Shown here: positions 136 through 23,916 of the stretch, piece after piece
Layout: each line of letters opens with the position of its first letter
Numbering within the stretch: the first letter of the stretch is position 1
NCBI GenBank assembly: GCA_017432405.1
Contig: JAFRJF010000137.1
Span: forward strand, 1-25,726
From: Clostridia bacterium
GTDB taxonomy: Bacteria; Bacillota_A; Clostridia; Christensenellales; Aristaeellaceae
Length of the DNA stretch: 25,726 bases
Direction: 5' to 3'
Translations under genes and position numbers: made by a program
Notes under the pieces: generated by a model
The model's database searches: none
Told to the model about the DNA's origin: nothing
What the model saw: only the letters and a program-made list of their open reading frames with translations

Positions 136-2013
136 TTACACCTGGGTGGTGAACTTCAGGTCGATCTCCTTGACATAGCCCCGGTGGCCCTGCAATTCGA
201 TCAGCGACCAGCCCTCCACGGTTTCGATGACGTCGACCTCCATGTTTGGCTTCAGGTTGCCCAGCACGGCGCTGCCTTCGTCGGCGGATTCGTACACCGG
301 CACCGCGCTGCCCTCGTGGGGGCTGGCCAGGGCCGTCTCCGTGGAGTCGTCCTCGAAGACCACGTCGGCGCTGTCGGGCATGTCGTCCGTTTCGACCGGC
401 ACGAGCTGGAAGGTGGCGGCGTCGCTGGGAATGTAGCCCTGCAGGCCGCCGTATTCGACGAGGGACCATTCGGTGCTGTGCAGCAGCACGCTGGCCGCCT
501 CGCCTTTGGGCATCGCGCCGAGCACCTCGCCGGAGTCGGACGGCGCGCTCTGGATGTCCAGGTCCCTGTCGGCAATGGCCCGCTCCGCAAGGTCCTCATG
601 GCGCTCCAGCGACCCGCCGCCCTCGACGTAGGCGGTGAAGCGCTCGGCAGGGCTCTCGTTCAGGTCGGTGATGCCGATGGAATACACCGGCGTGGCGCCA
701 TCCAATGAATAATCAAGCGTGACGGCGGTCTTGAGGGTGAAATCCAGGTACCGGTTCATCACATAGCCGGTGGCCTCGCCCTTCATCACTTTCGACCATT
801 CCTTGCCGCGCTCCACGCCGACGACGGTGGTGCCGTTCTTCAGGCTCCCCAGCGATTTGGATTCGGTGGAGGGCGCCTGCCGGAGCTTGATGCCCACCTC
901 GCAGTTGACGGTGCCCAGGAAGAGCTCCAGCTCCCGGGTGGTCAGCTGATAGTCGCCGGCGTCCACGAACATGGCCTTGACGTGTTCGGATTCGTAGTAG
1001 GCGGCCTTCTGCACGATAGGGGTGGCGACGCCGTCCGCTTCAAAGCCGTAGGCGTTTTCAAAGGCGGTCACGGCCTCGGTGACGTCCACGTCGTATACGC
1101 CGTCGATGGCCCCGCCGTACAGCTTCAACACCTGCAAATACCGCTGCAGCGCCCGCACGGCGGGGCCGCTGCTGCCGTGCTCGAGGGTGACGTTCATGGC
1201 GGCGGGGGCTGAGGCGTCGGTGATGGCCTGCTGGAATTCCAGTGTGGCCAGGCCGGTCTGCTGCTGGCCCAGCAGGCTCTGGGCTTCCCGGACGGCGCGC
1301 ACGGTGGCCAGCGTATACTCCTCGTTGATCTCCTGGTCGTAGATGCCCAGCGCCTTCAGCTTCAGCTGCAGGTCCCGCACCTCGCTGCCGGTGCAGCCCC
1401 GGCCCAGCATGCCCGGCTCGTCGGGCACGCCCAGAAACTGGCTGTAGGACTGGCCGCTGGCGGCGTGATAGGAGGACTGGTAGAGCAGGTTGCGCAGCTC
1501 CTCATCCCGCTCGCTGTCCTTGTGGATGTTCACCCGCGTGCCCACGGGGCAGTTTTCGGCGATGAACCGCGCGTCCTCCGTGCGCATGCGGATGCAGCCG
1601 TGGGATACGGGATAGCCGAAATCCCGGACGGACTGCTCGTTGATGGCGCTCTCGTTGGGCCGGTTGTACAGCAGGGAATGGAACATCACGTCGTAGTGGA
1701 TGCGGGTGGCGTAGCGGGCATAGCCGCCGAAGGCCCGGAAGTGAAACCACTCCTCCCGCTCGCCGTCCCGCTCCTTGTCGGGCATTTTGAAGCTGCCCAG
1801 GGGGGTGGCGTCCTCCGCGCCGGAGGAGCAGAGCCCCTGCATCACGATCGCGCCGCCGTCTTTGTTTTCATAGACGGTGACGATCTGGTTGACGATGTCC
1901 ACGTCCACCCGGTAGGGGGATTCCTCCGCCGCCGTCGCGCTGCCAATCGGGCCAAACGCGCCCAGCAGGAGCGTCAGTATCAGGCTATACAGTGCAAGCT
2001 GCCTTGCTTTCAT
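136..2013 (-). CDS. Secreted L,D-transpeptidase (YkuD) with peptidoglycan-binding and SH3-like repeats
   Basis: This is a predicted exported cell-wall cross-linking enzyme of 625 residues. Residues 1-29 form a signal peptide ending near ATAAE, with no lipobox. The YkuD catalytic domain spans about 34-165; it carries His112 in FHSLLY and the signature SHGCIR with catalytic Cys140. Two peptidoglycan-binding_1-like repeats follow at about 203-265 and 277-340. The C-terminal half holds three SH3-like segments at about 372-424, 480-530 and 560-620. L,D-transpeptidases of this family form 3-3 peptide cross-links or attach proteins to the wall; the exact substrate is not visible. The ATG at 2013 is preceded by AAGGAG at about 11 bases. 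The gene appears monocistronic, with a promoter-like -10 upstream and a terminator downstream. The long C-terminal binding tail is larger than in minimal YkuD enzymes. Confidence 0.9.
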   Translation of the reverse strand: MKARQLALYSLILTLLLGAFGPIGSATAAEESPYRVDVDIVNQIVTVYENKDGGAIVMQGLCSSGAEDATPLGSFKMPDKERDGEREEWFHFRAFGGYARYATRIHYDVMFHSLLYNRPNESAINEQSVRDFGYPVSHGCIRMRTEDARFIAENCPVGTRVNIHKDSERDEELRNLLYQSSYHAASGQSYSQFLGVPDEPGMLGRGCTGSEVRDLQLKLKALGIYDQEINEEYTLATVRAVREAQSLLGQQQTGLATLEFQQAITDASAPAAMNVTLEHGSSGPAVRALQRYLQVLKLYGGAIDGVYDVDVTEAVTAFENAYGFEADGVATPIVQKAAYYESEHVKAMFVDAGDYQLTTRELELFLGTVNCEVGIKLRQAPSTESKSLGSLKNGTTVVGVERGKEWSKVMKGEATGYVMNRYLDFTLKTAVTLDYSLDGATPVYSIGITDLNESPAERFTAYVEGGGSLERHEDLAERAIADRDLDIQSAPSDSGEVLGAMPKGEAASVLLHSTEWSLVEYGGLQGYIPSDAATFQLVPVETDDMPDSADVVFEDDSTETALASPHEGSAVPVYESADEGSAVLGNLKPNMEVDVIETVEGWSLIELQGHRGYVKEIDLKFTTQV

Positions 2014-2125: not shown

Positions 2126-2154
2126 TGGACACCGGGGTAAAAATGTGGTAAAAT
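2126..2154 (+). promoter_or_regulatory. Sigma-A-type promoter of the adenosine deaminase-like gene
   Basis: TGGACA (2126-2131) and TAAAAT (2149-2154) are separated by exactly 17 bases. Transcription should start near 2161, which excludes the upstream ATG at 2085 as a start and supports the GTG at 2202. Confidence 0.65.
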
Positions 2155-2201
2155 GTAAACGAAGACCGGGCCAAAGCGGTCGGCGAAAGGGGTGGGGCAG
2201 C

Positions 2202-4646
2202 GTGATCTTTTTCCAGCGTTTTTACCTGGACCGGGAAAAGGACATCGTCGTGGAGCTGTACATGGAGGGCAAGCGGCTGCTGCACGTGATCCGCACGCCC
2301 AACCACCACTCGGGCAACCTGATCACCAACCTGGCGCGGCTGTGCGGGCTTGAGACCAGCGAGGACGAAAACGGCCTGAAGGTGATCCGGGGCGAGGTGC
2401 CCTGCTACTACGACGGCGACAACCGGCGGCTGTACATACTGCGGCTGGGAAACACGAAGGTGGCCAACATCTGGCCCGACGGGCGGGTGGAGCTGAAGGC
2501 CTCGGTGCCCGCCATCTCCAAGACGCTGATGAGCCAGACGAAGGACTATCGCCTGGGCATCGACAAGACCATCGTCAAGACCTACATTCCCAGCGACTGC
2601 AAGTTCCGCACGGACCTGCACACCCACATGAACGGCAACCTTCCGCCGGATCTGCTGATTGCGCTGGCCATCGTGCACCAGATCCGCTATCCCTATTATT
2701 ATATAAAGAAGCTGGGCCTGAAATGCACGCCCGACCAGATCGGCGAACTGGAAAAACGGCGGGTGGAGGCTGAAAAGAACCTGGGCGAGACGGCGCTGAC
2801 GGGCCGCCACAGGCAGCGCCGCATCGACGATTTCACCTTCATCAACTTCGCCGACCTGATCCTGGGCAACCCGGAGGACGCGGCCTTCAACATCGGGCGC
2901 ATCCGCAACTCCCTGACCATCCCAAAGGACGGCCAGGCGGTGTTTGCCAATCTGGAAAAGGTGTATCTTTACCGCTACGTGTTTACCAAGGGGGTGCAAT
3001 CCGATCAGCCCTTCATTGGCCTGAACACAGAGGGCATCCCCGACCGGGAGGTGGCCGGCTATGCCGCGCGCATCCTCCGGGACAGGACGGACGACCGCTA
3101 TCGGGCCAACACCCTGTACCAGGACCTGCTGCTGTGGATCGGACGGGAGTGCCAGCGGTGGGGGGTCGAATATGTGGAGATCGCCGATACGGCGCTTCTG
3201 AATCGGGAGGCATTTCCGGCGAGGCTGCGCCAGATCCACGAGATCATGCCCGCGGTCACCCGGGAGACGGGGGTGTTGATCCGCTTCCTGGCGGGCATAA
3301 GGCGCATCCCGCTGACCATCGTGCGGGACCGGGTGACGCCCAACGACTACCTGGCGGAGAACCTGCGCTGCCTGCGGACCATCGCCGCCGACCCCTACGT
3401 GGCGGGAAGCGACATCATCGGCGAGGAGATCAACGACATCCTCGAACTGCGCAGCGTGATCCGTGAGCTGGTCGCCATCGCGGGGGCGCACCCCGGCTTT
3501 GTCATCCGCATCCATGCCGGCGAGAACGACAGCCTGCGGGACAACGTGGCGAACAGCATCCGCTGCGTGGCGGAGGCGCTGGCCCCGGGCCAGCCGATGC
3601 CGCCGTTGCGGGTGGGCCACGGGCTGTACACCTGCGACCTGCGCAGCGCCAAGGGCAAAAGGCTGCTGGAGGATATGGTCAAATACGGGGTGACGCTGGA
3701 ATTCCAGATCACCTCCAACGTGCGCCTGAACAACCTCAGCCGGCTGGAGCGGCATCCCCTGCGGCAGTACCTGCGGGCGGGGGTCAAGTGCGTGCAGGGC
3801 ACCGACGGCATGGCGCTGTACGGCACGAACTCCATCGACGAGGAGCTGAGCCTTGAAAAGCTGCTGGGCCTGAGCCACGACGAGCTGCGGGCCATGCGCC
3901 GGGCCGAGGACGGCATACTGGCCCAGAGCCGCCGCGCCTTTGCCGACAGGCAGGCGGCCTTCCGGCGGAATTGCCCGGGAGGGGACGTGGAGCTGTACTA
4001 CCGGGACAGGCTGCAGCAGGCGGGCCAGGCCTCCGGGGATCTCTGGCGCGAATCCGACAAGCTGGAGGCCGAAGCGGCGCTGTCAGGGCAGATCGCGCCG
4101 CTGCCCGGGGACGGCTTTCCCATCGTGGTGGCGGGCGGCAGCTTCAACAACAACCGGCATCGCACCGCCCTGCGCGCCGGGGACAGGGCTATCATCGACG
4201 CGCTGCTGGCCCGGCTCGACCCGGCGCGGGTCTTCTTCGCGGTGGGCCATACGCTGACCGGCCAGGAGGGCTATCTCGTCCGCCAGGCCGCAGGTCGCTT
4301 CCGGGTGTTCGCCTTCGTGCCCACGATGGTCAGCCGGGGAGAGCTGAACCGCCTGAGGGCTGCGGAGGTGGGCGTGCGGCTGTCCATCGAGAGCTCGGGC
4401 ATGGGCCTGTACAGGAGCTTCGCCTACGAGATATTCAAGCACCGGCCCTCGGCGCTGCTGGCCTTCGACGGCAATTCCGCGGCGCTGAACCTGATCCAGG
4501 AGGCCCGCAACGCCCGGCACAAGTGCCGCATCTACATCAACCCCAAGTCCCGTGGCCTCGCCGCCAAGGCGAAGCTGCTGGAGGGCTACGTCAGAGCGCT
4601 GGGGGAGGGGACGATTGGGGAATTAGGAATTAGGAATGAGGACTGA
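2202..4646 (+). CDS. Large adenosine deaminase-fold protein with C-terminal SLOG-like nucleotide-binding region
   Basis: This is an 814-residue protein from GTG 2202; the open frame continues back to 2085, but a good promoter at 2126-2154 lies inside that extension. Residues 1-130 are a domain I do not recognise. Residues about 135-600 are an adenosine/AMP deaminase-like metallohydrolase: HTH at 140-142 (first zinc ligands), HAGE at 438-441 (zinc His438, catalytic Glu441), GHG with His473, and TDG with metal Asp535. An insertion-rich stretch lies at about 165-300. Residues about 639-800 look like a Rossmann SLOG domain: a first strand VVAGGS, then VGHTLTGQEG, and a late AFDGNSAALNLI motif followed by a strand. 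Canonical ADA has about 340 residues, so more than half is extra. The expected reaction is deamination of an adenine nucleoside or nucleotide. The last residues (GELGIRNED) are encoded by a heptamer repeat. The SLOG call is by eye. Confidence 0.8.
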   Translation: MIFFQRFYLDREKDIVVELYMEGKRLLHVIRTPNHHSGNLITNLARLCGLETSEDENGLKVIRGEVPCYYDGDNRRLYILRLGNTKVANIWPDGRVELKASVPAISKTLMSQTKDYRLGIDKTIVKTYIPSDCKFRTDLHTHMNGNLPPDLLIALAIVHQIRYPYYYIKKLGLKCTPDQIGELEKRRVEAEKNLGETALTGRHRQRRIDDFTFINFADLILGNPEDAAFNIGRIRNSLTIPKDGQAVFANLEKVYLYRYVFTKGVQSDQPFIGLNTEGIPDREVAGYAARILRDRTDDRYRANTLYQDLLLWIGRECQRWGVEYVEIADTALLNREAFPARLRQIHEIMPAVTRETGVLIRFLAGIRRIPLTIVRDRVTPNDYLAENLRCLRTIAADPYVAGSDIIGEEINDILELRSVIRELVAIAGAHPGFVIRIHAGENDSLRDNVANSIRCVAEALAPGQPMPPLRVGHGLYTCDLRSAKGKRLLEDMVKYGVTLEFQITSNVRLNNLSRLERHPLRQYLRAGVKCVQGTDGMALYGTNSIDEELSLEKLLGLSHDELRAMRRAEDGILAQSRRAFADRQAAFRRNCPGGDVELYYRDRLQQAGQASGDLWRESDKLEAEAALSGQIAPLPGDGFPIVVAGGSFNNNRHRTALRAGDRAIIDALLARLDPARVFFAVGHTLTGQEGYLVRQAAGRFRVFAFVPTMVSRGELNRLRAAEVGVRLSIESSGMGLYRSFAYEIFKHRPSALLAFDGNSAALNLIQEARNARHKCRIYINPKSRGLAAKAKLLEGYVRALGEGTIGELGIRNED

Positions 4647-4697: not shown

Positions 4698-4737
4698 CGT
4701 CGCGCGCGGGCACTTTTCAAAGTGCCTGCGCGCGACG
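4698..4737. terminator. Long hairpin between convergent genes, probable bidirectional terminator
   Basis: A 19-base-pair stem (one G-U pair) with a TC loop lies between the 3' end of the deaminase gene and the 3' end of the convergent sensor kinase gene. On the plus strand it is followed by ATTTTG, a weak T-tract. Its central 19 bases (4706-4724) recur exactly inside recX. Confidence 0.65.
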
Positions 4738-4764: not shown

Positions 4765-6048
4765 TCATTCGGGTATCGTCACCTTTACCGCGGTTCCGCC
4801 GCCCTCCCGGGGCGTGATGGACATCTGCCCGTTGCACATCATCGTCAGGCGCTGGCGGATGTTGCCCAGCGCGATATGGGGCGCGTCGTCCTCGGTCGGC
4901 TCGAAGCCGGGGCCGTTGTCCTCCACGGTGAATTCGCTGCCGGAATCCGTACTCCGGGTCCGTATGGATATGCGAAGCGGCTCGGAATCCGGGTCGAGGC
5001 CGTGCTTGACGGCGTTCTCCACGATGGGCTGCAGCGTCAGTGGCGGCAGATGGAAGTGGGTGTGGGGCGTGTCGTAGTCCACGAAGAGGCGGTTGGTGAA
5101 CTGCGCCTGCTCCACGGCCAGGTAGGCGCGGGTGTGCTCCAGCTCCTCGGAAAAGGGGATGGTGTGTTCGCTGGCGATGGCGTTGAAGTTCTTGCGCAGG
5201 TAGGTGATGAAGTCCAGCGTGACCTGCTTGGCCGTCTGGGGGTCCTGGTCGCAGAGGTAGTAGACGCTGGTCATGGTGTTGTAGATGAAGTGGGGCCGCA
5301 TCTGGAGCATCAGTATGCTGGCGCGCTGTCGGGCGATTTCCTGCTGCTGGCGCAGGAGCTCCTGCTGGGTGCGCATGTACTGGTCGAGCTGGTCGGACAG
5401 TATGATGCCGTACATCACCACCGCGCAGGCGGCCAGGCTGATGTCGATAAACGGGTACACGGATACGAACACGTGCACCGTCAAGGCGACCGTCAGCGGC
5501 ACCAGCGCGATGAGAAACGCGCAGAACATCTTCCTGGACAGCCGGCTGCGCCAATGCAGTGCCGCGCCCAGGTTGATGGCCATGATGGCAATAAACGGCA
5601 GAACGGATATCGGATACCAGGGACCGTAGACAAGCTGCGTATCCTCCGTGATATAATAAAACTCGGTCGTAAACTGGGCCAGGTTCAGCATTGTGAAATA
5701 AACGAGCACCAGGGCGATCACGATGCGAAGCAGCACGCTCTTTTTCAGGTCCTCCCCGCAGCTGTGCAGCAGGTAGACCGTCAGCATGGGGACCGGCGCC
5801 ATGTACAAAAGCGAGTCGACGTAGGATACGACGATTTCCAGGGACCTGCAGCCGGGTTTTCCGTAGATGATGATTTCAAGCAGGGAAGTGGCGGAGAGCA
5901 GCGCCAGGGCCACAAAGAAGGCGATGAAGAAGCGCTTGCTCCACCGGTCGAGGCCGGGCATGATGGCTGCGGCCCCCAGCCCCAGCACCGTCAGCCCCAA
6001 CGCAACCCCGGTTATCAGTAGATAGAAAGACTCTGTAAAATCGTTCAT
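4765..6048 (-). CDS. LytS-like membrane sensor histidine kinase
   Basis: This is a 427-residue sensor kinase. Residues 1-220 contain about six or seven hydrophobic segments (for example near 8-30, 38-60, 76-95, 104-124, 145-164, 174-196, 200-218). A short coiled coil rich in Gln and Arg (about 222-245) leads to the His_kinase domain, with His253 in QMRPHFIYN as the expected phosphoacceptor. The HATPase part has the N box PIVENAVKHG (341-350) and DNGPG (377-381). These are features of the LytS/YpdA-type HPK7 group. Its ATG overlaps the stop codon of the regulator gene by four bases (ATGA), so the two are translationally coupled and almost certainly partners. The signal it senses is unknown. 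Kinases of this group usually pair with LytTR regulators, which is not the case here. Confidence 0.9.
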   Translation of the reverse strand: MNDFTESFYLLITGVALGLTVLGLGAAAIMPGLDRWSKRFFIAFFVALALLSATSLLEIIIYGKPGCRSLEIVVSYVDSLLYMAPVPMLTVYLLHSCGEDLKKSVLLRIVIALVLVYFTMLNLAQFTTEFYYITEDTQLVYGPWYPISVLPFIAIMAINLGAALHWRSRLSRKMFCAFLIALVPLTVALTVHVFVSVYPFIDISLAACAVVMYGIILSDQLDQYMRTQQELLRQQQEIARQRASILMLQMRPHFIYNTMTSVYYLCDQDPQTAKQVTLDFITYLRKNFNAIASEHTIPFSEELEHTRAYLAVEQAQFTNRLFVDYDTPHTHFHLPPLTLQPIVENAVKHGLDPDSEPLRISIRTRSTDSGSEFTVEDNGPGFEPTEDDAPHIALGNIRQRLTMMCNGQMSITPREGGGTAVKVTIPE

Positions 6049-6644
6049 TCACCTGCGCCTCCCGTCATAAGCGGATAGCGCAGGTTTTTCAGTTGGGCCC
6101 TGACGCCCTCCGCAGTGATCGGCTTGAGCATGTAGCCGCTGGCCCCGGTGGTCCAGGCGTCCACGGCGTACTCGCTGTACGCGGTCAGGTAGACCACGTT
6201 GGTGCGGGGGTTGATCTCCAGCAGCCTCCGGCAGAGGTCGAGCCCGTTCAGCTTGCCCAGCTCGATGTCCAGGAAGGCCAGCGCCACCCGGTTGATCTTC
6301 GCGTATTCAATGGCCTCCGACGGCCGTATGAAGCCCGTGATCGTGGCGTTTGGCAACACTTCCTCCAGTATGGGCAGGCCCCCGGCCAACACGATTTCCC
6401 GGTCGTCCACCAGTATGACGTTGGGCGATTCGTCGCTCCGGGCGGCGGCGACCATGAGCATGCCGATGTCCACGCCCAGGCACTGGGACAGCCGGGAGAT
6501 CATCGTGGCGTCCGGCAGGCGGGTGCCGTTTTCCCAACGCCCGACGGTGCTTCGGGTGACGAACAGCTTCTTCGCCAATTCCCGCTGCGTCAGCCTCCTC
6601 TCGGCCCTGAGGTTGCGCAGCGTTTCCGCAAAATACTGGTTCAT
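6045..6644 (-). CDS. Response regulator with N-terminal XRE helix-turn-helix and C-terminal receiver domain
   Basis: This 199-residue protein has an XRE/Cro-type helix-turn-helix at residues about 7-62 (TQRELAKKLFVTRSTVGRWE is the core). A receiver domain follows at about 75-192: acidic pair Asp80-Asp81, phosphoacceptor Asp126 in FLDIEL, Thr154 and Lys174 in the conserved switch positions. All receiver residues needed for phosphorylation are present. The domain order is reversed relative to most response regulators, where the receiver comes first, and the output domain is not LytTR. It is the first gene of a two-gene operon with the sensor kinase. It is divergent from a beta-glucosidase operon, so that unit and its own promoter are the obvious candidate targets (inference). 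The ribosome binding site (AGAGAG region) is weak. Confidence 0.9.
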   Translation of the reverse strand: MNQYFAETLRNLRAERRLTQRELAKKLFVTRSTVGRWENGTRLPDATMISRLSQCLGVDIGMLMVAAARSDESPNVILVDDREIVLAGGLPILEEVLPNATITGFIRPSEAIEYAKINRVALAFLDIELGKLNGLDLCRRLLEINPRTNVVYLTAYSEYAVDAWTTGASGYMLKPITAEGVRAQLKNLRYPLMTGGAGE

Positions 6645-6711: not shown

Positions 6712-6740
6712 GCACATCCCGGTCTTGTTTACGATTTCTA

Positions 6741-6769
6741 TTGACGAATACCGCGGAATGAAGTATATT
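6741..6769 (+). promoter_or_regulatory. Promoter of the beta-glucosidase operon
   Basis: TTGACG (6741-6746) and TATATT (6764-6769) are spaced by 17 bases. The -35 elements of this promoter and the divergent regulator promoter lie about 30 bases apart. The predicted leader is about 70 bases. Confidence 0.65.
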
Positions 6770-6773
6770 GATG

Positions 6774-6828
6774 GTATTGGCAATGCGATTCATGAACACA
6801 TTTTATCCGACTGATACCATTCCAATAC
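6774..6828. promoter_or_regulatory. Candidate operator: spaced inverted repeat in the beta-glucosidase leader
   Basis: GTATTGG at 6774-6780 and its inverse CCAATAC at 6822-6828 flank 41 bases. Similarity extends inward (GTATTGGCAATG against GTATTGGAATGG). It begins just after the -10 box, where repressors or a two-site regulator could act. No experiment or search backs this; it could be chance. Confidence 0.3.
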
Positions 6829-6846
6829 GAAAGGGGAGGCACCTCT

Positions 6847-8205
6847 ATGGCACGGTTTCCTTCTGACTTCATTTGGGGCGTGGCCTGCGCGTCCTACCAG
6901 TGCGAGGGCGGCTGGGATGCGGACGGAAAGGGCCCCAACATCTGGGATGACTTCTGCCACCGGGTCGGCGGCAGCACCGTCAAGAACAACGACAACGGCG
7001 ATATCGCCTGCGACAGCTACCACCGCTACCCCGAGGACATCGCGCTGATGAAGCGGCTGAACATACGGGCCTACCGCTTCTCCATCAGCTGGGCGCGGGT
7101 CATGCCCGACGGCGACGGGCCCCTGAACGAGGCGGGGCTGGCCTATTACGACGACCTGGTGGACCGGCTGCTGGCAAACGGCATCGAGCCGATGATCACG
7201 CTGTACCATTGGGACCTGCCCAGCGCCCTGCAATACCGGGGCGGCTGGCTGAATCGTGAGATGGTGGACATCTTCGCCCGCTACGCCGAGGTCATCGCGA
7301 AGCGCTTCAAGGGCCGGGTCAAAAAGTACATGACCATCAACGAGCCCCAGTGCGTCGCCCTGGGCTACTATTCCGACGGCATGGCCCCCGGCTGGCGCTG
7401 CCCGGAGGAGGACGTGGCGCGGATTTTCCACATCCTCGCGCTTTCCCACAGCGCCGCCCAGCGCGCCATCAAGGCCGTGGACCCCGAAGCGCTGGTGGGC
7501 CTGGTGCCCTGCGGGAAGCTGTGCGCTCCCGTCGAGGATACCCCCGAGGGCCGGGAGAGCGCCTATCGGGCCACCTTCGAGATGAGCAAGGATGCCTGGC
7601 TCTGGGCCTTCAACACCAACATCATACTGGACAGCGTGATTCTGCGCCGCTATGACGAATCCGCCCCGGCGCCGGTCCGCAAATTCGCCGCCACGGTTCC
7701 CCAGGCCGACTGGGAGGCCATGGAGGCCCCGGATTTCATCGGCATCAACCTCTACAACGGCAGCAGGGTGGATCTGAACGGACGGGAGGCGGCGCTGCAC
7801 CGCGGGTTCCCACGCACCGCCGTCAAGTGGCCCATCACCCCCGAGGTGATCCACTTCGGGCCGCTGCACCTGCACAGGCGCTACGGCCTGCCGATCCTGA
7901 TCACCGAAAACGGGCTCTCCTGCAACGACATCATCTTCCGGGACGGCCAGGTGCACGACCCCAAGCGCATCGACTTCCTGCACCGCTACCTGACCGAGCT
8001 GTCCAGGGCCATCGCCGAGGGCGTGCCGGTGATGGGCTACCTGCAGTGGAGCTTCCTGGACAACTTCGAGTGGGCCAGCGGCTACGACGAGCGCTTCGGC
8101 ATCGTCTACGTGGACTATCCCACGCTCCGGCGCATCCCCAAGGACTCCGCCGCCTGGTACGCCAACGTCATCGCCACAAACGGCGCATGCCTTGACGAGG
8201 ATTAG
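6847..8205 (+). CDS. Glycoside hydrolase family 1 beta-glucosidase
   Basis: This 452-residue enzyme hydrolyses terminal beta-linked glucose from oligosaccharides or aryl glucosides by the retaining mechanism. The family signatures are complete: the N-terminal FIWGVACASYQCEGG, acid/base Glu166 in TINEP, nucleophile Glu354 in ITENG, and NFEWASGYDERFG near the C-terminus. The NFEW motif (residues 406-409) is typical of enzymes acting on non-phosphorylated sugars; the Ser/Lys/Tyr phosphate-binding signature of 6-phospho-beta-glucosidases is not seen. No signal peptide is present, so the enzyme is probably cytoplasmic and needs imported substrate, but no transporter lies in the window. GGGGAGG stands 7 bases before the ATG. 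The next gene follows after 10 bases. Confidence 0.93.
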   Translation: MARFPSDFIWGVACASYQCEGGWDADGKGPNIWDDFCHRVGGSTVKNNDNGDIACDSYHRYPEDIALMKRLNIRAYRFSISWARVMPDGDGPLNEAGLAYYDDLVDRLLANGIEPMITLYHWDLPSALQYRGGWLNREMVDIFARYAEVIAKRFKGRVKKYMTINEPQCVALGYYSDGMAPGWRCPEEDVARIFHILALSHSAAQRAIKAVDPEALVGLVPCGKLCAPVEDTPEGRESAYRATFEMSKDAWLWAFNTNIILDSVILRRYDESAPAPVRKFAATVPQADWEAMEAPDFIGINLYNGSRVDLNGREAALHRGFPRTAVKWPITPEVIHFGPLHLHRRYGLPILITENGLSCNDIIFRDGQVHDPKRIDFLHRYLTELSRAIAEGVPVMGYLQWSFLDNFEWASGYDERFGIVYVDYPTLRRIPKDSAAWYANVIATNGACLDED

Positions 8206-8215
8206 GAGGGATATT

Positions 8216-9373
8216 ATGTCTGTACAGCCCATGCGCGTCGGCGTGGTCGGCTCCGGCATGATCAGCCGCATCTACCTTGAAAACATGACCCGCCGCTTTG
8301 AGATCCTGGAGGTGGGCGGCGTCTGCTCGGCCCACTTTGAAAACGCGAAGCGCCGCGCCGACGAATTCGGCCTGCCGGCGATGACCCTGGAGGACATGCT
8401 CGCGGACGAGAAGATCGACATGATCGTGAACCTGACGCCCAACCCGGCCCACGAAGGCATCATCCGGCGGGCGCTGGAGGCGGGCAAGCACGTCTACACC
8501 GAAAAGACGATGACCACCGACCACGTCAGCGCCAGGGCGCTTGCGGACCTGGCGGCGAAAAAGGGCCTGTGGCTGGGCGCCGCGCCGGATACCTTCCTGG
8601 GCGCGGCGCTGCAGACCGCCCGGCGGGCCATCGACGACGGCCTGATCGGCGAGGTGACCTCCTTCGCCTTCGCCGCCAACCGCGACAACGACTTTCTCAG
8701 GAGCTTCTACCGCTTTTTGAACCTGCCCTTCGGCGGCGTGGCCTACGACTATGCCGTGTATTATCTCACTGCGCTGTGCAGCCTGCTGGGGCCGGTGGAG
8801 CGGGTGGCGGCGGCGGTGCGCGCGCCCTATCCCACCCGCATCGACATCGACCCGAAGTCGAAGACCTTCGGCCAGCCCATCGACACGCCCAACGAGAGCG
8901 AGATCAGCGCGGTGCTGACCCTGAAGAGCGGCGTCAGCGGCACGGCCCACGTGAACGCCGACAGCGTGATCGAGGACATGCACTTCTTCGCCATCTACGG
9001 TACCCGGGGCATACTCTACCTGCCCGACCCCAACGGCTTCGGCGGCGAGGTGCGGCTGCAGCCCAACTGGGCCTACGACGCGGCGCCTGCCCCGGCGCGG
9101 GCGCTGCGAAGCGAAGCAAGTCCTTTAGGAAATTGCCCCTTTGGCTACGCGGACAACAGCCGGGGCGTCGGCCCCGCCGAGCTGGCCTGGTCCGTCCGCG
9201 CGCAACGCCCTGCCCGGGCCGGGGCGGACATGGCCTGCCACGTGCTGGAGGTCATCGACGCCATCATCGACAGCGGCAGCAGGAACGCCTTCGTCGATAT
9301 CCAATCCGATTTCATTCGCCCCCGCCCGCTGGCCGTGCCGACGGAGGGGGAGGAGAGCAGTATAAGGAATTAG
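8216..9373 (+). CDS. Gfo/Idh/MocA-family NAD(P)-dependent oxidoreductase
   Basis: This 385-residue protein starts at ATG 8216 (AGGAGGG six bases upstream); an ATG at 8192 lies inside the preceding gene and is less likely. The N-terminal Rossmann fold begins with VGVVGSGMIS at residues 8-17. The catalytic-lysine motif appears as TEKTMTT (Lys97), in place of the usual EKP. The C-terminal domain begins near 125 and contains GGVAYDYAVYYL (173-184), aligned with the family's GG...D..H segment. Family members oxidise or reduce sugars, inositols or glycosides. The gene lies 10 bases after the beta-glucosidase, suggesting joint glycoside or sugar metabolism (inference). Residues about 292-307 (near RALRSEASPLGNC) look like an in-frame insertion of different base composition. 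The last residues (SIRN and the stop) come from a heptamer repeat. Confidence 0.87.
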   Translation: MSVQPMRVGVVGSGMISRIYLENMTRRFEILEVGGVCSAHFENAKRRADEFGLPAMTLEDMLADEKIDMIVNLTPNPAHEGIIRRALEAGKHVYTEKTMTTDHVSARALADLAAKKGLWLGAAPDTFLGAALQTARRAIDDGLIGEVTSFAFAANRDNDFLRSFYRFLNLPFGGVAYDYAVYYLTALCSLLGPVERVAAAVRAPYPTRIDIDPKSKTFGQPIDTPNESEISAVLTLKSGVSGTAHVNADSVIEDMHFFAIYGTRGILYLPDPNGFGGEVRLQPNWAYDAAPAPARALRSEASPLGNCPFGYADNSRGVGPAELAWSVRAQRPARAGADMACHVLEVIDAIIDSGSRNAFVDIQSDFIRPRPLAVPTEGEESSIRN

Positions 9374-9432
9374 GAATTAGGAATTAGGAATGAGGGATGA
9401 GGAAGGCGTACTGTCTTTCCTCATCCCTCATT
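9366..9432. repeat. Heptamer array (GGAATTA family) ending in an inverted copy
   Basis: Direct units run from 9366: GGAATTA three times, GGAATGA, GGGATGA and a partial GGAAGG. An inverted stretch of the same unit type follows at 9416-9432 (CTCATCCCTCATT). The oxidoreductase stop codon (TAG, 9371-9373) lies in the first and second units. Confidence 0.85.
9389..9432. terminator. Repeat-derived hairpin between convergent genes, likely bidirectional terminator
   Basis: The arms AATGAGGGATGAGGAA and TTCCTCATCCCTCATT are perfect complements of 16 bases around a loop of about 12. The hairpin is followed by TTTG on the plus strand. It separates the oxidoreductase 3' end from the recX 3' end (9440), and both arms are made from heptamer units. 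Confidence 0.55.
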
Positions 9433-9439
9433 TGATTCA

Positions 9440-10051
9440 TTATTCGAACAGGGCTTCGATCGCGGTTTCGATCGCGTCCCAGGGGAAGCCGCGCCTGGCC
9501 AGCGCCTGGGAGAGCTTGGATCGCGCCTGACGTGGGGGAAGCGCTTCGTACTTTCTGAAGAGCTTTTCGGCGGCCTGCAGGGCGGCGGCGCGCTGCTGGT
9601 CGTCGTCGAAGGCGGCAAGGGCGTCCTGGGCGTCGTCGTCGCTGATGCCCCTGGCGCGCAGCTTGCGCCTGAAGGCGTACAGCCCCACGGGCTTTGAGGC
9701 CTGCAGCTCGGCCATGCGCTGGGCGTAGCGGGCGTCGTCAATCAGGCCGTTCTCGGTCAGTCGCGCCAGCACGGCGTCGATGGCGGGCTGGACGATGCCC
9801 CTGCGGCGAAGGGCGCCTGCAAGGTCGTGGGCCGTGCGGGCGGAGCGGTCCAGGCTGGACAGGGCCGCCTCGTAGGCGTCGGCGAACTGGGCGGCGGCCA
9901 CCCGGTCCAGCCACGCGGCCCCGTCGATGTTGTCGCCGGTGGCCAGCGGGCACTTTTCAAAGTGGCTCTTGCGCACACGGGCGAAGGTCGCGCCCTCCAG
10001 GATGACCTCCACCATTCCCCGGTTTTCCCGGATATCCGTAACGACGGCCAT
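9440..10051 (-). CDS. recX: Regulatory protein RecX
   Basis: This 203-residue protein starts at ATG 10051, with GGAGGG seven bases upstream; an upstream in-frame start at 10093 overlaps the promoter. RecX proteins bind RecA filaments and limit recombinase activity. The recognisable RecX three-helix repeats run from about residue 65 to the end: LRRRGI, LTENGLIDDARYAQ and LRARGISDDDAQDAL are the typical helix signatures. Residues 1-50 are the N-terminal extension found in Gram-positive RecX. Within it, residues 29-37 (SHFEKCPLA) are encoded by a 19-base sequence shared exactly with an intergenic hairpin at 4706-4724. recA is not in the window. The gene is divergent from the YebC gene. Confidence 0.85.
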   Translation of the reverse strand: MAVVTDIRENRGMVEVILEGATFARVRKSHFEKCPLATGDNIDGAAWLDRVAAAQFADAYEAALSSLDRSARTAHDLAGALRRRGIVQPAIDAVLARLTENGLIDDARYAQRMAELQASKPVGLYAFRRKLRARGISDDDAQDALAAFDDDQQRAAALQAAEKLFRKYEALPPRQARSKLSQALARRGFPWDAIETAIEALFE

Positions 10052-10928: not shown

Positions 10929-10962
10929 AGCGACAGGGACGCCGAATGGCGTCCCTGTCGCT
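10929..10962. terminator. Perfect 15-bp hairpin between convergent genes
   Basis: AGCGACAGGGACGCC and its exact complement flank a GAAT loop, 13 bases after the YebC stop and 13 bases before the stop of the convergent secreted-protein gene. There is no T-tract on either side, so its terminator role is inferred from position. Confidence 0.5.
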
Positions 10963-10975
10963 GTCTGCAGCGCGT

Positions 10976-11458
10976 TCAATCCTGGTTCCCCAGATCGGCG
11001 ACCACCGTGGCGCTGCCGCCCACGTATTCCTGGTTCCAGATGACGCGGCTGCTCTCACCGCAGGCGCTTTCGATCTGCTTCCATGTGGCGTAGCGGCAGG
11101 CCTTGAAGGTCGCTCCATCCTCGCTGGAAAAGGCGAGCACCTCCACCGAGCCGTCCGACGGCGGCTGTACGGGCACGGCGATCACCCAGATGCTGCCGGT
11201 CCAGAAGCCGACGGCATAGTCGGTCTGAACGCTGCTCAGATCGGCATAGCGCTCCGCGAGGCTCTGCCATTGCCGGGCGTCCGGCGCGCCGCCGGAGAAG
11301 GGCAGGCGATCGGACAGGGCGTCGTAATCCCCCGAGGCCAGCGCGACCAGGGCCTGCTTTGCGCTGTCAAACAGGCCTGCCGACATCTTTGGCGCGCCGG
11401 CCAGCGCGGTTGTCCCCACGAGAAGCAGCGCCAGTACAGTCAGGAATGTTTTTTTCAT
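10976..11458 (-). CDS. Small secreted protein of unknown function
   Basis: This 160-residue protein starts at ATG 11458, with GGAGGCGG upstream; the open frame extends five codons further. Residues 1-20 are a signal peptide (MKKTFLTVLALLLVGTTALA) with a likely cleavage at ALA-GA and no lipobox cysteine. The mature part has a short helical stretch (FDSAKQALVALASGDYDAL) and then a beta-rich region with many Trp and Tyr residues (VQTDYAVGFWTGSIWVIAVPV). I do not recognise a family. The gene lies 42 bases downstream of the VWA lipoprotein gene on the same strand, so the two are probably co-transcribed and may act together at the cell surface (inference). Confidence 0.7.
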   Translation of the reverse strand: MKKTFLTVLALLLVGTTALAGAPKMSAGLFDSAKQALVALASGDYDALSDRLPFSGGAPDARQWQSLAERYADLSSVQTDYAVGFWTGSIWVIAVPVQPPSDGSVEVLAFSSEDGATFKACRYATWKQIESACGESSRVIWNQEYVGGSATVVADLGNQD

Positions 11459-11500
11459 TGCAACCGCCTCCAATCCGGGAAGAGATTATACACTGTGCGC

Positions 11501-13171
11501 TCATTCCGCCAGCGCCGCGTTCCGCTGGGCGATCTTGACCAGCGAGAAGAATTCCTCGCGGTAGGCGTCGTTCAGCGGGGCCTGCTTCAGCAGCTCCAGG
11601 ACGGTGTCGTAGCTGGCATTGCCCTTGTATTCGCTGTTCGAGAGGATCATGCCGAACTCGGCCACCGCCGCGGCGAACAGGAAGTCGCCGGAGGGGGCGT
11701 CGGTCATGGCGGTGTCGTCGATCACGTCGGTCTGCAGCTGGCTGGACTCGCCGCCGGGCTCCTTGTAGCGGGTGGACAGGGTCAGCCATTCGCCACCCTG
11801 GGCCGCCTCGGTGAGGCTGCTGCTCTGGTACTTCAGGCCGCCGTCAGAAGCGCCTTCTGCCGCGGGCACCAGCTCATACAGCACGGTGACGCAGGCGCCG
11901 GAGCCGACCTCGCCGGCGTCCTTTTTATCGTCCTCGAAGTCCTGGTTCTCCAGGGCGCGGTTCTCGTAGCCGATCTGCCGCCATTCGGAAACCTTGGCCG
12001 GATTGAACTCCACCTGGAACTTCACGTCGTCGGCCACGGCGTAGAGGGTCTGGGTCAGCTCCTCGCACAGCACCTTTCGGGCCTCGAGTATGGAGTCGAT
12101 GTAGTAGTAGTTGCCGTTGCCGTCGTCGGCCAGGGTCTCCATCTTGGTGTCCTTGTAGTTGCCCATGCCAAAGCCCAGCACAGACAGGTAGATGCCGGTC
12201 TGCTTCTTCTCGGTGACGAAGTCGTGCAGGTCGCTCTCGCTGGTGATGCCCACGTTCAGGTCGCCGTCGGAGCACATGATCACCCGGTTGTTCCCCTTGG
12301 GCCGCAGGTAGCGCTGGGCCACCTCGTAGGCCTGGGCCAGGCCGCGCTGGCCGTTGGTGGAGCCGCTTGCCACCAGCGCGTCGATGGCGCCCAGCAGCCG
12401 GGCCTTGTCCTTCACGGGATTGGCGCCTTCGATCAGGATATCCTCGCCGCTGGCGTAGGTGACGATGGACACGGTGTCCTTCTCGCCCAGCTCGTCCACC
12501 AGCATGGACAGCGCCCGCTTGGCCAGATCCAGCTTGTTTTCGTCGCTCATGGAGCCGGATACGTCCACCAGGAAGACGAGGTTCGAGCCCTCGTCGGACG
12601 ACTCGGGGGCGTCGGCGGCGCGCACGCCCAGCGTCAGCAGGACGTGCGCCGGATTCCAGGGACAGGCGGCCATCCGGGCGGTTACGCCGAATCTCGCGTC
12701 GCCTTCGGGCGCGGCGTAGTCATAGCGGAAGTAGTTCAGCATCTCCTCCACGCGCACCGCGCCGGCGGGAATGACGTCGGGGGCATAGTCGTCGTTCAGC
12801 ATGCGCCGCAGGTTGCAATAGGAGGCCGTGTCCACATCCGCCGAGAAGGTGCTCAGCGGGTCTGTGGCCACCTTCCTGAACCCGTTCTCGGTCACGGCGG
12901 CATATTCCTCGGTGTTGAAGTCTTGCGGCATTGCGCGTCCCATGGCGGGCATGGCGATATTGGCCACCAGGCCGCTCTCCATGGCCCCGTCCATCTCGTA
13001 TTCGTAGAGCGCGTCCTCCGCCATGGGCAAGGGCTCGCTGGTCGCGGCGACCTTTGCCGTTTCACGATCCAGCGATTGCGTCATGCGATTCAAAAACGAC
13101 GGCAGCGCGCAGCCCGTGAGCAGCACCGCGCTCAGCGCCAGCGAGACGATCATCAATCCTATCTTCTTCAT
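11501..13171 (-). CDS. VWA-domain lipoprotein, YfbK-like
   Basis: This 556-residue protein has a lipoprotein signal with lipobox LTGC and lipidated Cys21. Residues about 85-175 match the YfbK-type N-terminal region (FSADVDTASYCNLRRML). A von Willebrand factor A domain spans about 196-375 with a complete MIDAS metal site: DVSGS (203-207), Thr272 in GSTNG and Asp302 in CSDGD. The region after 380 resembles the C-terminal domain that usually follows in this family. VWA domains bind protein partners through a divalent metal ion; the partner here is unknown. AGGAGG lies eight bases before the ATG. The upstream intergenic region (13172-13337) is AT-rich and shared with a divergent methyltransferase gene. 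A small secreted protein follows in the same operon. Confidence 0.88.
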   Translation of the reverse strand: MKKIGLMIVSLALSAVLLTGCALPSFLNRMTQSLDRETAKVAATSEPLPMAEDALYEYEMDGAMESGLVANIAMPAMGRAMPQDFNTEEYAAVTENGFRKVATDPLSTFSADVDTASYCNLRRMLNDDYAPDVIPAGAVRVEEMLNYFRYDYAAPEGDARFGVTARMAACPWNPAHVLLTLGVRAADAPESSDEGSNLVFLVDVSGSMSDENKLDLAKRALSMLVDELGEKDTVSIVTYASGEDILIEGANPVKDKARLLGAIDALVASGSTNGQRGLAQAYEVAQRYLRPKGNNRVIMCSDGDLNVGITSESDLHDFVTEKKQTGIYLSVLGFGMGNYKDTKMETLADDGNGNYYYIDSILEARKVLCEELTQTLYAVADDVKFQVEFNPAKVSEWRQIGYENRALENQDFEDDKKDAGEVGSGACVTVLYELVPAAEGASDGGLKYQSSSLTEAAQGGEWLTLSTRYKEPGGESSQLQTDVIDDTAMTDAPSGDFLFAAAVAEFGMILSNSEYKGNASYDTVLELLKQAPLNDAYREEFFSLVKIAQRNAALAE

Positions 13172-13301
13172 GGCTCTGTCCTCCTTTGTTTTATCGGTTG
13201 ATGTTTGGACGAACAGAGGAGGAATTTGGTTCCAGATGACATTTTATGATAAAACATAAACCAACAGTAAAGAAATTAACTGTGAGTTAACGATACTGTG
13301 T

Positions 13302-15977: not shown

Positions 15978-16736
15978 TCATAACCTCACTGTTATTCCGT
16001 TCTCGCGCAGCGCGCGCTTCAAATCCGATATCTGCACCTCGCCGAAGTGGAAGATCGAGGCCGCAAGCCCCGCGTCCACCTTCGGAAGGGTTTTGAACAG
16101 GGTGACGAAATCCTGTATGCAGCCCGCGCCGCCGGAGGCGATCACGGGCACGTTCACGGCTTCGCACACGGCGTCCAGCATCTCCAGGTCAAAGCCGCCC
16201 TTCACGCCGTCGGTGTCGATGCTGTTGAGCACCACCTCGCCCGCGCCGTTTGCCACGCAGCGGGCGATCCAGCTGACGGCCTCCATGCCGGTATCCTCGC
16301 GCCCGCCCTTGGCAAACACGCGGAACGTCCCGTCCACCCTTTTCACGTCGGCGGAGATCACCACGCACTGGCTGCCGTAGCGCTCGGCGGCGGCGGGGAT
16401 CAGGTCGGGATTGCGGATGGCGCCGGAGTTGACGGACACCTTGTCCGCGCCGCACTTGAGCACCCGGTCGAAGTCGTCCACCGTGTTGATGCCGCCGCCC
16501 ACGGTCAGCGGTATGAACACCCGCTCGGCCACCTGGCGGAGGATGTCGGTGAACAGCGCCCGGCCCTCGGCGGAGGCGGTGATGTCGTAGAACACCAGCT
16601 CGTCCGCGCCGCATTTGCTGTAGTATTCCGCCAGCTTCACCGGCGAGGAGACGTCCGCCAGGCCGAGGAAGTTGACGCCCTTCACGACCCGGCCGTCCTT
16701 CACGTCCAGGCAGGGGATGATGCGCTTGGTGATCAT
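15978..16736 (-). CDS. hisF: Imidazole glycerol phosphate synthase, cyclase subunit
   Basis: This 252-residue (beta/alpha)8-barrel takes ammonia delivered by HisH and converts PRFAR into imidazole glycerol phosphate and AICAR. Catalytic Asp11 ([12 protein letters not shown]) and Asp130 (ISADVKR) are present, with phosphate-binding LTVGGGI (77-83) and VIASGGAG further on. The segment usually written HGGR...TG reads KGGREDTG here. The start overlaps the hisA stop by four bases. HisH is two genes upstream, with hisA between. Confidence 0.97.
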
Positions 16737-17449
16737 TGCGCCGCCTCCTTGATGGCCTCAGCCAGGTCTATAGCTCCGGTGTAGCAGGCCTTGCCGATGA
16801 TCGCGCCGTACAGCCCCAGCGCGGCGAGGGCCTTCACATCCTCCATGTCGGAAACGCCGCCGGAGGCCACGAGGTCCATGCGATACCTGCGCTGCAGGTC
16901 GGCGTACAGGGCCCGGTTGGCCCCCTGCATGGCGCCGTCCCGGCTGATGTCGGTGCAGATCAGGGTCTTCAGCCCCATCTGCTGGTACTTTTCGCAGAAG
17001 GCGTCCAGCGTCATGCCGGAGAGCTCCAGCCAGCCCCGGATGGCCACCTCGCCGTCCTTCACGTCCGCGCCGAGGGCAATGCCCTCGCCGAAGTGCCGGA
17101 GGGCATCCCGGGTGAAGGCCTCGTCGGCAATCGCCGCCGTGCCCAGTATGACCCGCCGGACGCCCGCGTCCAGGTACTTTTCGATGACGGACATGTCCCG
17201 TATGCCGCCACCGATCTCAACGAACAGGTCGGTGTTCTCCACGACCCGTTTGACGGTTTCAAAGTTGGGCGTGCCGCCGTCCCGCGCGCCCTCCAGGTCC
17301 ACCATGTGCAGGTGGGTGGCCCCGGCACTGGCGAACCGGCGGGCGGTGTTCAGCGGGTCGTCGTCGTAAACCGTCATCTGGTTGTAATCGCCCTTGTACA
17401 GCCGCACGGCCTTGCCGCCGACCAGGTCAATGGCGGGGAATATCAGCAT
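16733..17449 (-). CDS. hisA: ProFAR isomerase (phosphoribosylformimino-AICAR-P isomerase)
   Basis: This 238-residue barrel isomerises ProFAR to PRFAR. Asp8 (FPAIDLVGG) and Asp129 (GADVKDGEVAIRGW) are the catalytic acids. Phosphate-binding segments VEIGGGIRD (77-85) and the later VASGGVSD are intact. The motif TDISRDG marks the Thr/Asp region of the second half. The start overlaps the hisH stop by seven bases and the stop overlaps hisF by four, so translation is coupled. The Gln/Asn/Trp loops that allow bifunctional PriA activity were not assessed. Confidence 0.97.
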   Translation of the reverse strand: MLIFPAIDLVGGKAVRLYKGDYNQMTVYDDDPLNTARRFASAGATHLHMVDLEGARDGGTPNFETVKRVVENTDLFVEIGGGIRDMSVIEKYLDAGVRRVILGTAAIADEAFTRDALRHFGEGIALGADVKDGEVAIRGWLELSGMTLDAFCEKYQQMGLKTLICTDISRDGAMQGANRALYADLQRRYRMDLVASGGVSDMEDVKALAALGLYGAIIGKACYTGAIDLAEAIKEAAQ

Positions 17450-18069
17450 TTCGCATCACCGTCCCATTCACAGAAGGCCTTCAGTATGCCCAGCCCCACG
17501 TCGCCGCTCTTTTCCGGGTGGAACTGGCAGCCGCAGACGTTGCCCCGGGCCACGGCAGCGGTCAGCGGCGCGCCGTATTCAGCGGTGGCGATGACCGATT
17601 CGTCGCACCTTGCGCCGTAGAAGGAGTGGACGAAGTACACGCAATCCCCGGGCCGGACGTTGGCGAAGATGGGGTGGGGCTTGCTCACGTCCAGCGCGTT
17701 CCAGCCGATGTGGGGGATTTTCAATTCCGAGGGGATGACCTCGGCAATGGGCCGCACCTCGCCGGGGATCAGGCCGAGGCCGGCGTGCTCGCCGAACTCA
17801 TAGGATTTGTCCAGCAGCAGCTGCATGCCCAGGCAGATGCCCATGATGGGCGTGCCCCGCTCGGCGATCTGCTTAACCAGCGCGTCCAGGCCGGTCTGGC
17901 GCAGCTTTTCCGCCGCGTCGCCAAACGCGCCCACGCCGGGCAGGATCACCCGCTCGGCACGGCTGATCTCTTTTGCGTCGCCGGTGACGACGGCCTGGGC
18001 GCCGACGGCCTTCAGGCTGTGGGCCAGCGAAAACAGGTTGCCCACGCCGTAATCGATAATCGCGATCAT
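17443..18069 (-). CDS. hisH: Imidazole glycerol phosphate synthase, glutaminase subunit
   Basis: This 208-residue class I glutamine amidotransferase hydrolyses glutamine and channels ammonia to HisF. Catalytic Cys79 lies in GICLGMQLL, and His184 and Glu186 in QFHPEKSG complete the triad. The start is ATG 18069 (protein MIAIIDYGVGN); the open frame runs much further upstream, but that stretch is hisB read out of frame. The start overlaps the hisB stop by four bases. Confidence 0.96.
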   Translation of the reverse strand: MIAIIDYGVGNLFSLAHSLKAVGAQAVVTGDAKEISRAERVILPGVGAFGDAAEKLRQTGLDALVKQIAERGTPIMGICLGMQLLLDKSYEFGEHAGLGLIPGEVRPIAEVIPSELKIPHIGWNALDVSKPHPIFANVRPGDCVYFVHSFYGARCDESVIATAEYGAPLTAAVARGNVCGCQFHPEKSGDVGLGILKAFCEWDGDAKC

Positions 18070-18653
18070 AGTAATCCTTTCGTCGACGGTATCTCGCCGT
18101 TCAGGGTGGGGTCGATGGCCACGGCGGTCCGCAGGCTGCGGGCCGCGGACTTGAACGCGCCCTCGACGATGTGGTGGCTGTTGCTGCCGGCCAGCTGCCT
18201 GAAGTGCAGCGTGACGTTCGCCTTGCGCACGAAGCCCAGCCAGAACTCCTGCACCAGCTCGGTATCGAAGCTGCCAATCTTCTGGGTGGGGATGTCCAGG
18301 GCGTAGCCCAGGTGGCAGCGCCCGGAGATGTCCACCGCGGTGAGGATCAGCGCCTCGTCCATGGGCAGAACGGTGTGGCCGTAGCGGACGATGCCGCCCA
18401 TGTCGCCCAGGGCTTCGGCGAAGGCCATGCCCAGGCAGATGCCGATGTCCTCGACGGAGTGGTGGTCGTCCACGTCGGTGTCGCCCACGCATTTCACGGC
18501 CAGGTCAAAGCGGCCGTGGCGGGCGAACAGCGTCAGCATATGGTTCAGGAAGCCGCAGCCGGTGTCGATCTCCGACTTGCCCGAGCCGTCCAGGTTCAGC
18601 TCCAGCCGGATGTCCGTCTCGGCGGTGCGGCGGGTGATGGTGGATGTGCGCAT
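18066..18653 (-). CDS. hisB: Imidazoleglycerol-phosphate dehydratase
   Basis: This 195-residue monofunctional dehydratase converts imidazole glycerol phosphate to imidazole acetol phosphate. The two manganese-binding His clusters are intact: GFLNHML (34-40) with DDHHSVED (62-69), and NSHHIVEGAFKS in the second half. The C-terminal PSTKG motif is present. No phosphatase domain is fused, unlike the E. coli HisB. GGGAGG lies six bases before the ATG. A 96-base gap with two small palindromes separates it from hisC. Confidence 0.97.
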   Translation of the reverse strand: MRTSTITRRTAETDIRLELNLDGSGKSEIDTGCGFLNHMLTLFARHGRFDLAVKCVGDTDVDDHHSVEDIGICLGMAFAEALGDMGGIVRYGHTVLPMDEALILTAVDISGRCHLGYALDIPTQKIGSFDTELVQEFWLGFVRKANVTLHFRQLAGSNSHHIVEGAFKSAARSLRTAVAIDPTLNGEIPSTKGLL

Positions 18654-18711
18654 GGTGTACCTCCCTTGGGAGAATGTCGATTTTGAGGTGGGGATGGTAA
18701 ATACTGGTTTA

Positions 18712-18741
18712 TCGAGCTGAGCTCGACAAATCAGGATTTGT
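18712..18741. repeat. Twin small palindromes between hisC and hisB
   Basis: TCGAGC-TGA-GCTCGA (18712-18726) is followed directly by ACAAATC-AG-GATTTGT (18726-18741). Both arms are perfect. The surrounding 18690-18745 is AT-richer than the operon. They could form two adjacent hairpins in the his mRNA, or be a repetitive element. Confidence 0.6.
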
Positions 18742-18749
18742 ACTACGCT

Positions 18750-19805: not shown

Positions 19806-19836
19806 TCCTCATTCCTCATTCCTAATTCCTCATTTG
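19802..19836 (-). repeat. Heptamer array (GGAATGA/GGAATTA) that supplies the hisC start and ribosome binding site
   Basis: On the minus strand the order is a degenerate unit, GGAATTA, then GGAATGA three times. The ATG of the last GGAATGA is the hisC start codon (19803-19805), and the GAGG of the previous unit junction lies eight bases upstream. It belongs to the same family as 4619-4681 and 9366-9432. Confidence 0.9.
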
Positions 19837-21121: not shown

Positions 21122-21138
21122 AGCGATCCCCCTTTGAA

Positions 21139-22864: not shown

Positions 22865-22892
22865 AGACAACCTCCGGGTTTTGATTGTCGGT

Positions 22893-23855: not shown

Positions 23856-23916
23856 AGTCAAGAACCTCCAAATCAATACAATTATCGGATAAACAGCACA
23901 TTTATAACTATCCAAT

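Follow-up and report, generated by a model that had tools for sequence, protein, structure and literature searches.

An adenosine deaminase barrel joined to a predicted C-terminal SLOG domain in rumen and gut bacteria: a candidate ligand-controlled deaminase

Introduction

The 25,726-nucleotide stretch of Clostridia bacterium analysed here (contig JAFRJF010000137.1 of assembly GCA_017432405.1; the whole stretch is called the window) carries a gene for a protein of 814 residues, in which an adenosine deaminase (ADA) barrel lies between an N-terminal region and a C-terminal SLOG-like domain. The question this locus raises is what such a protein, here called ADA-SLOG, deaminates, and whether its C-terminal domain controls it. 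Where sources name proteins of this family they call them plain adenosine deaminase, a label that hides both the loss of two adenosine-contact aspartates and a SLOG domain unseen by Pfam. As far as searches of the open-access literature show, the combination of N-domain, deaminase and SLOG in one gene is an undescribed architecture; no such protein was found described there, in papers on SLOG domains and deaminases or in those on ATP deaminases. We put the case for a self-contained, ligand-controlled deaminase at a little short of even.

An intact deaminase barrel with an altered adenosine site

The gene and the parts of its product are as follows, with conservation counted over 161 homologous sequences.

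2202..4646, + strand: N-domain/adenosine deaminase/SLOG fusion gene, 814 residues
2202..2555, + strand: N-terminal beta-rich domain, about residues 1-118, without Pfam match and as conserved as the catalytic barrel
2556..3950, + strand: adenosine-deaminase TIM-barrel domain, residues 119-583, more than 100 residues beyond canonical ADA
2619..2633, + strand: metal ligands H140 and H142 (HTH), then N144 replacing mouse ADA Asp19; each 161/161
3513..3524, + strand: HAGE 438-441, with metal ligand His438 and catalytic Glu441; 161/161
3615..3623, + strand: GHG 472-474, with His473; His473 161/161
3804..3809, + strand: Asp535 (metal) and Gly536 replacing mouse ADA Asp296; each 161/161
4074..4643, + strand: SLOG domain, residues 625-814, with GGSF 645-648, ESSGMGLYRS 730-739, FDGNS 755-759, N763 and Q766

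The open reading frame (ORF) of 814 codons, running from GTG at 2202 to a stop ending at 4646 on the + strand, is present as the initial annotation described it. Its barrel contains the metal and catalytic set of the adenosine deaminase superfamily (PF00962), namely HxH, HxxE, H and D in a TIM barrel, and the zinc-type barrel is intact; because these motifs are retained across the 161 homologues, they stand beyond chance. HTH 140-142, HAGE 438-441 and Asp535 lie where they had been placed, while GHG had been put at 471-473 and sits at 472-474. We regard ADA-SLOG as very probably an active deaminase.

Canonical adenosine deaminases are marked by Asp19 and Asp296 (mouse numbering), and these are Asn144 and Gly536 in every one of the 161 sequences. 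Aligned with Salmonella ADA, the family reads HTHMNG and TDGMA against HRHLDG and TDDPA, and two further chains aligned with HTHMNG read HLHIEG and HLHLEG. The NCBIfam model aden_deam scores the protein at 43.7 bits, against a cut-off of 216.55. In mouse ADA, Asp19 binds the ribose hydroxyls and Asp296 is catalytic; in TaqCad1, Gly264 and Asn549 occupy these two positions, and the enzyme turns ATP into ITP and is inactive on AMP, ADP and N6-methyl-AMP (PMC12669630). RdrB deaminates triphosphates and neither mono- nor unphosphorylated substrates (PMC9994260). For the ADA-SLOG barrel a phosphorylated substrate is the somewhat likelier case.

The N-terminal region, which had been noted as unrecognised, consists mainly of strands plus one helix in the predicted model. 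Its mean majority fraction across the 161 sequences is 0.856 (residues 1-100), compared with 0.831 for residues 131-590 and 0.770 for residues 637-800. Even at E ≤ 10 Pfam gave no credible match for this region or for the C-terminal domain, the rows at 0.055-0.24 being chance-level. A length-matched search with the N-domain alone returned 222 short proteins, and among the 120 listed none has another Pfam domain. The corresponding search with the C-terminal domain gave 115 short matches, seven of them with a Pfam domain: three carry PF00962, and the other four, on contigs of 1.0-2.0 kb, are P0164 (PF00185), P0188 (PF01336), P0210 (PF13245/PF00580) and P0212 (PF19601). Both sets were rejected as standalone homologues of the end domains, as they appear to be pieces of ADA-SLOG family members, mostly from short contigs.

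A C-terminal domain with a SLOG-type fold

The motifs VVAGGS, VGHTLTGQEG and AFDGNSAALNLI, from which a Rossmann- or SLOG-like domain had been proposed, are all found in the C-terminal domain of the translated ORF, and comparison of the structural model of this domain bears the proposal out. The model has the SLOG Rossmannoid fold, with structural matches to DprA, LOG/YgdH, the Moco carrier protein and TRPM MHR1/2 at about 8-17 % identity; these proteins have the SLOG-type fold in common with ADA-SLOG but no Pfam or PDB sequence match to it, and a sequence-only PDB search with the SLOG profile gave nothing credible. Going by the model, the C-terminal domain almost certainly has the SLOG fold. 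The invariant GGSF, Y737, G757 and N763 suggest a ligand pocket within it.

A proposed mechanism and its closest parallels

Reasoning by analogy, ADA-SLOG most likely works like Cad1 with the sensor exchanged. The substrate of the barrel would be not adenosine but an adenine nucleotide carrying phosphate, either ATP/dATP or a messenger derived from nucleotides. The SLOG domain, itself not catalytic, would bind a ligand of the adenine-nucleotide or ADP-ribose type in its pocket and so switch the deaminase, in the manner of CARF in Cad1 and SLOG in ThsA. The conserved N-domain probably builds an oligomer or couples the barrel to the SLOG domain. The nucleotide pool would then shift towards ITP/IMP-type products, and growth would be arrested in response to infection or metabolic stress. 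Gating of the deaminase by the SLOG domain is, in our judgement, reasonably likely.

Cad1 (also CAAD, the CARF-fused adenosine deaminase of type III CRISPR) has its CARF sensor at the N-terminus, whereas ADA-SLOG has a C-terminal SLOG domain and an additional N-domain, in whose sequence no CARF domain was recognised. The two barrels also differ in length: N144 and G536 of ADA-SLOG lie 392 residues apart, against 285 from G264 to N549 in TaqCad1 and 277 from D19 to D296 in mouse ADA, about 110 residues more. ThsA, the SIR2-SLOG protein of Thoeris, is like ADA-SLOG an effector enzyme with a gating SLOG domain (PMC11204291), but its effector is an NADase and that of ADA-SLOG a deaminase. No TIR protein was seen among the window ORFs scanned.

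The joining of the two domains probably lets a gut bacterial cell turn on the destruction of adenine nucleotides upon a signal molecule. If it is indeed a gated nucleotide deaminase, ADA-SLOG would add to RdrA-RdrB and CARF-ADA a further case in which an ADA barrel was independently combined with a module that senses infection or stress; it would represent a system common in rumen and gut bacteria and, as a single gene, simple to test, and it would make concrete which messenger SLOG sensors outside Thoeris read.

Distribution, and loss in a sister genome

The protein search scored 7,999 candidates, of which 5,589 reached E ≤ 0.001, some of these possibly being other deaminases; the best 120 of the 5,589 have at least 74 % identity and at least 94 % coverage. 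A search of GTDB genome contigs gave 409 stretches that encode a relative, of which the best 80 were taken further. By title count, 63 of these 80 bear RUG (33) or RGIG (30) identifiers and are rumen or ruminant-gut assemblies; RUG identifiers we take to denote rumen assemblies, and the RGIG record titles name host animals. The titles among these 80 mostly name Clostridia or Clostridiales, while Solobacterium titles and some names among the short N-domain proteins point to Erysipelotrichales. Sampled frequencies are low at high rank (2/398 genomes in the phylum, one being the source genome itself, and 1/197 in one order, the source genome being the sole carrier) and common but patchy lower down (37/150 in one family, 11/28 in one genus); part of the absences are assembly artefacts, genome completeness not being stated. 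Matches to the A_deaminase family (PF00962) occur in 13 of the 28 genomes of that genus: the 11 with ADA-SLOG, one with an RdrB-like protein (G612) and one with a 572-residue ADA protein (G615).

Of the 28 genomes, G609 comes closest by two flanking proteins, the L,D-transpeptidase (94 % identical) and the histidine kinase (87 %); it has no match to the deaminase. Its DNA similarity to the window (93 % and 90 %) ends at position 2112 and restarts at 4767, the edges of the deaminase transcription unit. Beside its transpeptidase lie 2.15 kb of unrelated DNA (48.7 % GC, guanine plus cytosine) with a long palindrome at the start; as the two flanks are on separate contigs, the empty site is not spanned. 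The palindrome (TGTCAAGGGGACGGTTCTCCTGACA arms) occupies about 2077-2145 of its contig (L083, G609:C80), at the point that corresponds to the start of the deaminase unit in the window. Its arm is not found in the window at up to 3 mismatches, and the palindrome resembles a dispersed mobile repeat. The ADA-SLOG gene adjoins the transpeptidase in G602, G002 and G619, and does not in G614. Since species with less similar transpeptidases (76-80 %) carry the gene at the same place, the simplest explanation is that G609 has lost it or had it replaced. Patchy presence, together with absence from the closest sister genome searched, fits an accessory effector and is no proof of one.

Separately, a palindromic repeat of about 42 bp (TTTATCGAGC..GCTCGACAAAT) lies at 18699-18740 of the window and also occurs in sister genomes, in L086 and twice in L087; one of the L087 copies directly precedes the histidine kinase beside the missing deaminase.

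Genomic neighbourhood and the question of defence

Neighbours were surveyed at 81 loci, with up to four mechanically called ORFs per side. The resulting 554 ORFs fall into 447 clusters, the largest spanning 11 loci at scattered positions. Among the 12 clusters listed none keeps the same position in more than five loci, and those that do share a position form the downstream block of about five related loci. There is no conserved partner gene of ADA-SLOG, which answers the call of the initial annotation for a table of homologue neighbours. Loci L034, L036, L040, L045, L047, L049 and similar ones share downstream genes in the same order, in about five related loci.

The initial annotation also placed the gene among nucleotide-based stress and defence systems, and this was not borne out. 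At E ≤ 1e-10, 137 near neighbours matched 18 PADLOC models (mad3 in four, mad8 in two, the others in one each), several of them apparently through one CARF-PDDEXK protein and one PDC-S05 protein; the former is the single CARF nuclease match among these neighbours. As many genes lying 5.5 kb or more away, at loci of this kind, matched 11 models with at most two members each. Pfam assigned the near neighbours to mixed housekeeping and signalling families, of which GGDEF is the commonest (5/137). We consider a defence role doubtful. Its most specific form, a single-gene system for immunity or stress in gut Clostridia and Erysipelotrichales, in which a SLOG domain sensing an ADP-ribose or cyclic-ADPR-type signal would gate an ATP/dATP deaminase and so perform RADAR/Cad1 chemistry with neither ATPase nor CRISPR partner, is unlikely.

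Weighing the alternatives

Several observations weigh against a self-contained, ligand-controlled deaminase. Ligand, substrate and allostery are all predictions from sequence and models. The mapping of Asp19 comes from short, weak alignments (-1.4 bits; E 0.18-0.24), which the neighbouring HxH metal motif anchors. With Foldseek alone, the C-terminal model had a single match at E ≤ 0.001 (8.7e-4), with unrelated Rossmann-type proteins (cystathionine beta-synthase, methyltransferases) slightly below it. Placement in defence islands was rejected, the 18 models near and 11 far representing no clear PADLOC excess. A pattern search of IMG/VR viral contigs matched 17 stretches, none confirmed as a relative, and searches of 50,697 phage records and 72,556 plasmid records found no relative. 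At 28 of 78 loci an ORF on the same strand stops no more than 60 bp before the gene, so some relatives may be transcribed as part of an operon; on the other side, a same-strand ORF begins no more than 60 bp after it at 9 of 77 loci. Finally, ADA-SLOG is the sole PF00962 match at E ≤ 1e-5 in all 11 carriers of the one genus, which leaves a metabolic role open.

A metabolic enzyme is the alternative that survives best. ADA-SLOG would here be a purine-salvage deaminase, acting on adenosine, AMP or a modified purine nucleotide, with the SLOG domain serving feedback, and its loss would mark a dispensable pathway. We hold this to be possible, though rather unlikely. Besides being the sole match of its carriers, the gene has a chromosomal setting, at the same site in several species, and was not seen on the mobile elements just listed. 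However, both adenosine-contact aspartates are replaced throughout the family, the end domains lack a sequence match to any known family, and 15 of the 28 genomes have no A_deaminase match, so that the activity is not essential in that genus. ADA-SLOG could be the only purine deaminase of its carriers, yet more than half of the genus has none, and the distribution thus cuts both ways.

An improbable alternative is a bifunctional processor, in which a SLOG domain of the LOG/YgdH (PpnN) phosphoribohydrolase type would cut the glycosidic bond of a purine nucleotide after its deamination. The fold matches include LOG proteins and YgdH, and LOG-like SLOG domains cleave AMP-type substrates (PMC9503650). 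The sequence speaks against it. The catalytic motif of LOG is PGGxGTxxE; at this position, with the register set by eye, the family reads FDGNSAALN, and N763 replaces the glutamate in all 161 sequences.

Relation to RADAR and CRISPR-associated deaminases

As the initial annotation had it, no RdrA lies beside the gene, which is flanked by genes for an L,D-transpeptidase and a histidine kinase; a Pfam scan of 20 window ORFs found no RdrA, the only AAA protein being SpoVK/CbbX-like. Nor were cas or CRISPR genes seen among these 20, the window spanning only 2.2 kb upstream of the gene. ADA-SLOG resembles RdrB in being an oversized ADA with extra segments around the zinc site (PMC9994260). It differs in several respects. 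The PADLOC RdrB model has no match at E ≤ 0.1 in 11 ADA-SLOG proteins, while an RdrB-like protein of the same genus (G612), the positive control, scores 6.9e-27, and membership in RdrB was rejected on this hidden Markov model result. That protein shares the Asn in place of Asp19 (HLHAN, by eye), but keeps TDDP where the ADA-SLOG family has TDG, and hhalign aligns the two over only 53 columns (E 0.12). RdrB is not known to carry a SLOG domain. The RdrB-like protein of G612, a genome with no match to the SLOG-deaminase, has 984 residues and is encoded at 6716-9670 on the minus strand of its contig (L089, G612:C14), with a 218-residue ORF adjoining.

The PADLOC model CARF_ADA matches the window protein weakly (1.1e-4), at residues 352-589 of the 853-residue ORF that begins upstream, and thus over the deaminase only; it also matches 9 of 10 other homologues. 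A CRISPR link through this match was rejected: an ADA protein of G615 outscores it by far (3.5e-23) over an aligned range (model positions 337-596) without any CARF match, so the model is not specific for CRISPR deaminases. This protein, of 572 residues, is of the adenosine-deaminase type with a leader-like start (signal peptide by eye), and is encoded at 101-1819 on the minus strand of its contig (L088, G615:C104). That ADA-SLOG is a divergent RdrB or Cad1 dependent on a partner encoded elsewhere is very improbable, since the points in its favour, the CARF_ADA matches and extra residues that, as in RdrB (PMC9994260), lie inside the catalytic core, are set against the missing RdrB match, the unspecific model and the lack of a conserved partner nearby.

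Transcription unit and other features of the window

The following signals accompany the gene.

2126..2154, + strand: promoter-like site TGGACA-17-TAAAAT, TG-extended, 10/12 matches
2186..2192, + strand: Shine-Dalgarno-like AAAGGGG, 9 nucleotides before GTG 2202, from sequence
4698..4737, + strand: intrinsic terminator, 18-bp stem and 4-nucleotide loop

The ORF finder starts the gene at ATG 2085; we favour GTG 2202 on account of the promoter-like site, the AAAGGGG and aligned homologues that start near the same residue. The scanned region contains four promoter-like sites, where 0.7 would be expected, and the segment 3' of the stop folds 5.7 standard deviations below shuffles. Upstream lies the L,D-transpeptidase/SH3 protein (136-2013, minus strand, divergent) and downstream the histidine kinase (4765-6048, minus strand, convergent). 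Given the promoter-like site, the terminator and two minus-strand neighbours, the gene looks like its own transcription unit; the earlier claim of a one-gene system with its own promoter and terminator stands for the window, and may not hold strictly at the related loci with a close upstream ORF. The GC fraction of the gene (0.652) is close to that of its surroundings (0.628 and 0.633).

Adjoining the histidine kinase is a 199-residue protein (6045-6644, minus strand) with HTH_3 first and then a receiver domain, an unusual order. The ORFs at 10946-13201 (751 residues), 6790-8271 (493 residues) and 23001-23930 (309 residues) match no Pfam family at the cut-offs applied, nor any NCBIfam model at 1e-5. 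A histidine biosynthesis cluster occupies 15978-22870 on the minus strand, with separate genes for a short HisG (21139-21774) and a HisZ-like protein (21764-22870); the 614-residue HisD ORF call overlaps hisG in another frame, and its start is probably over-extended.
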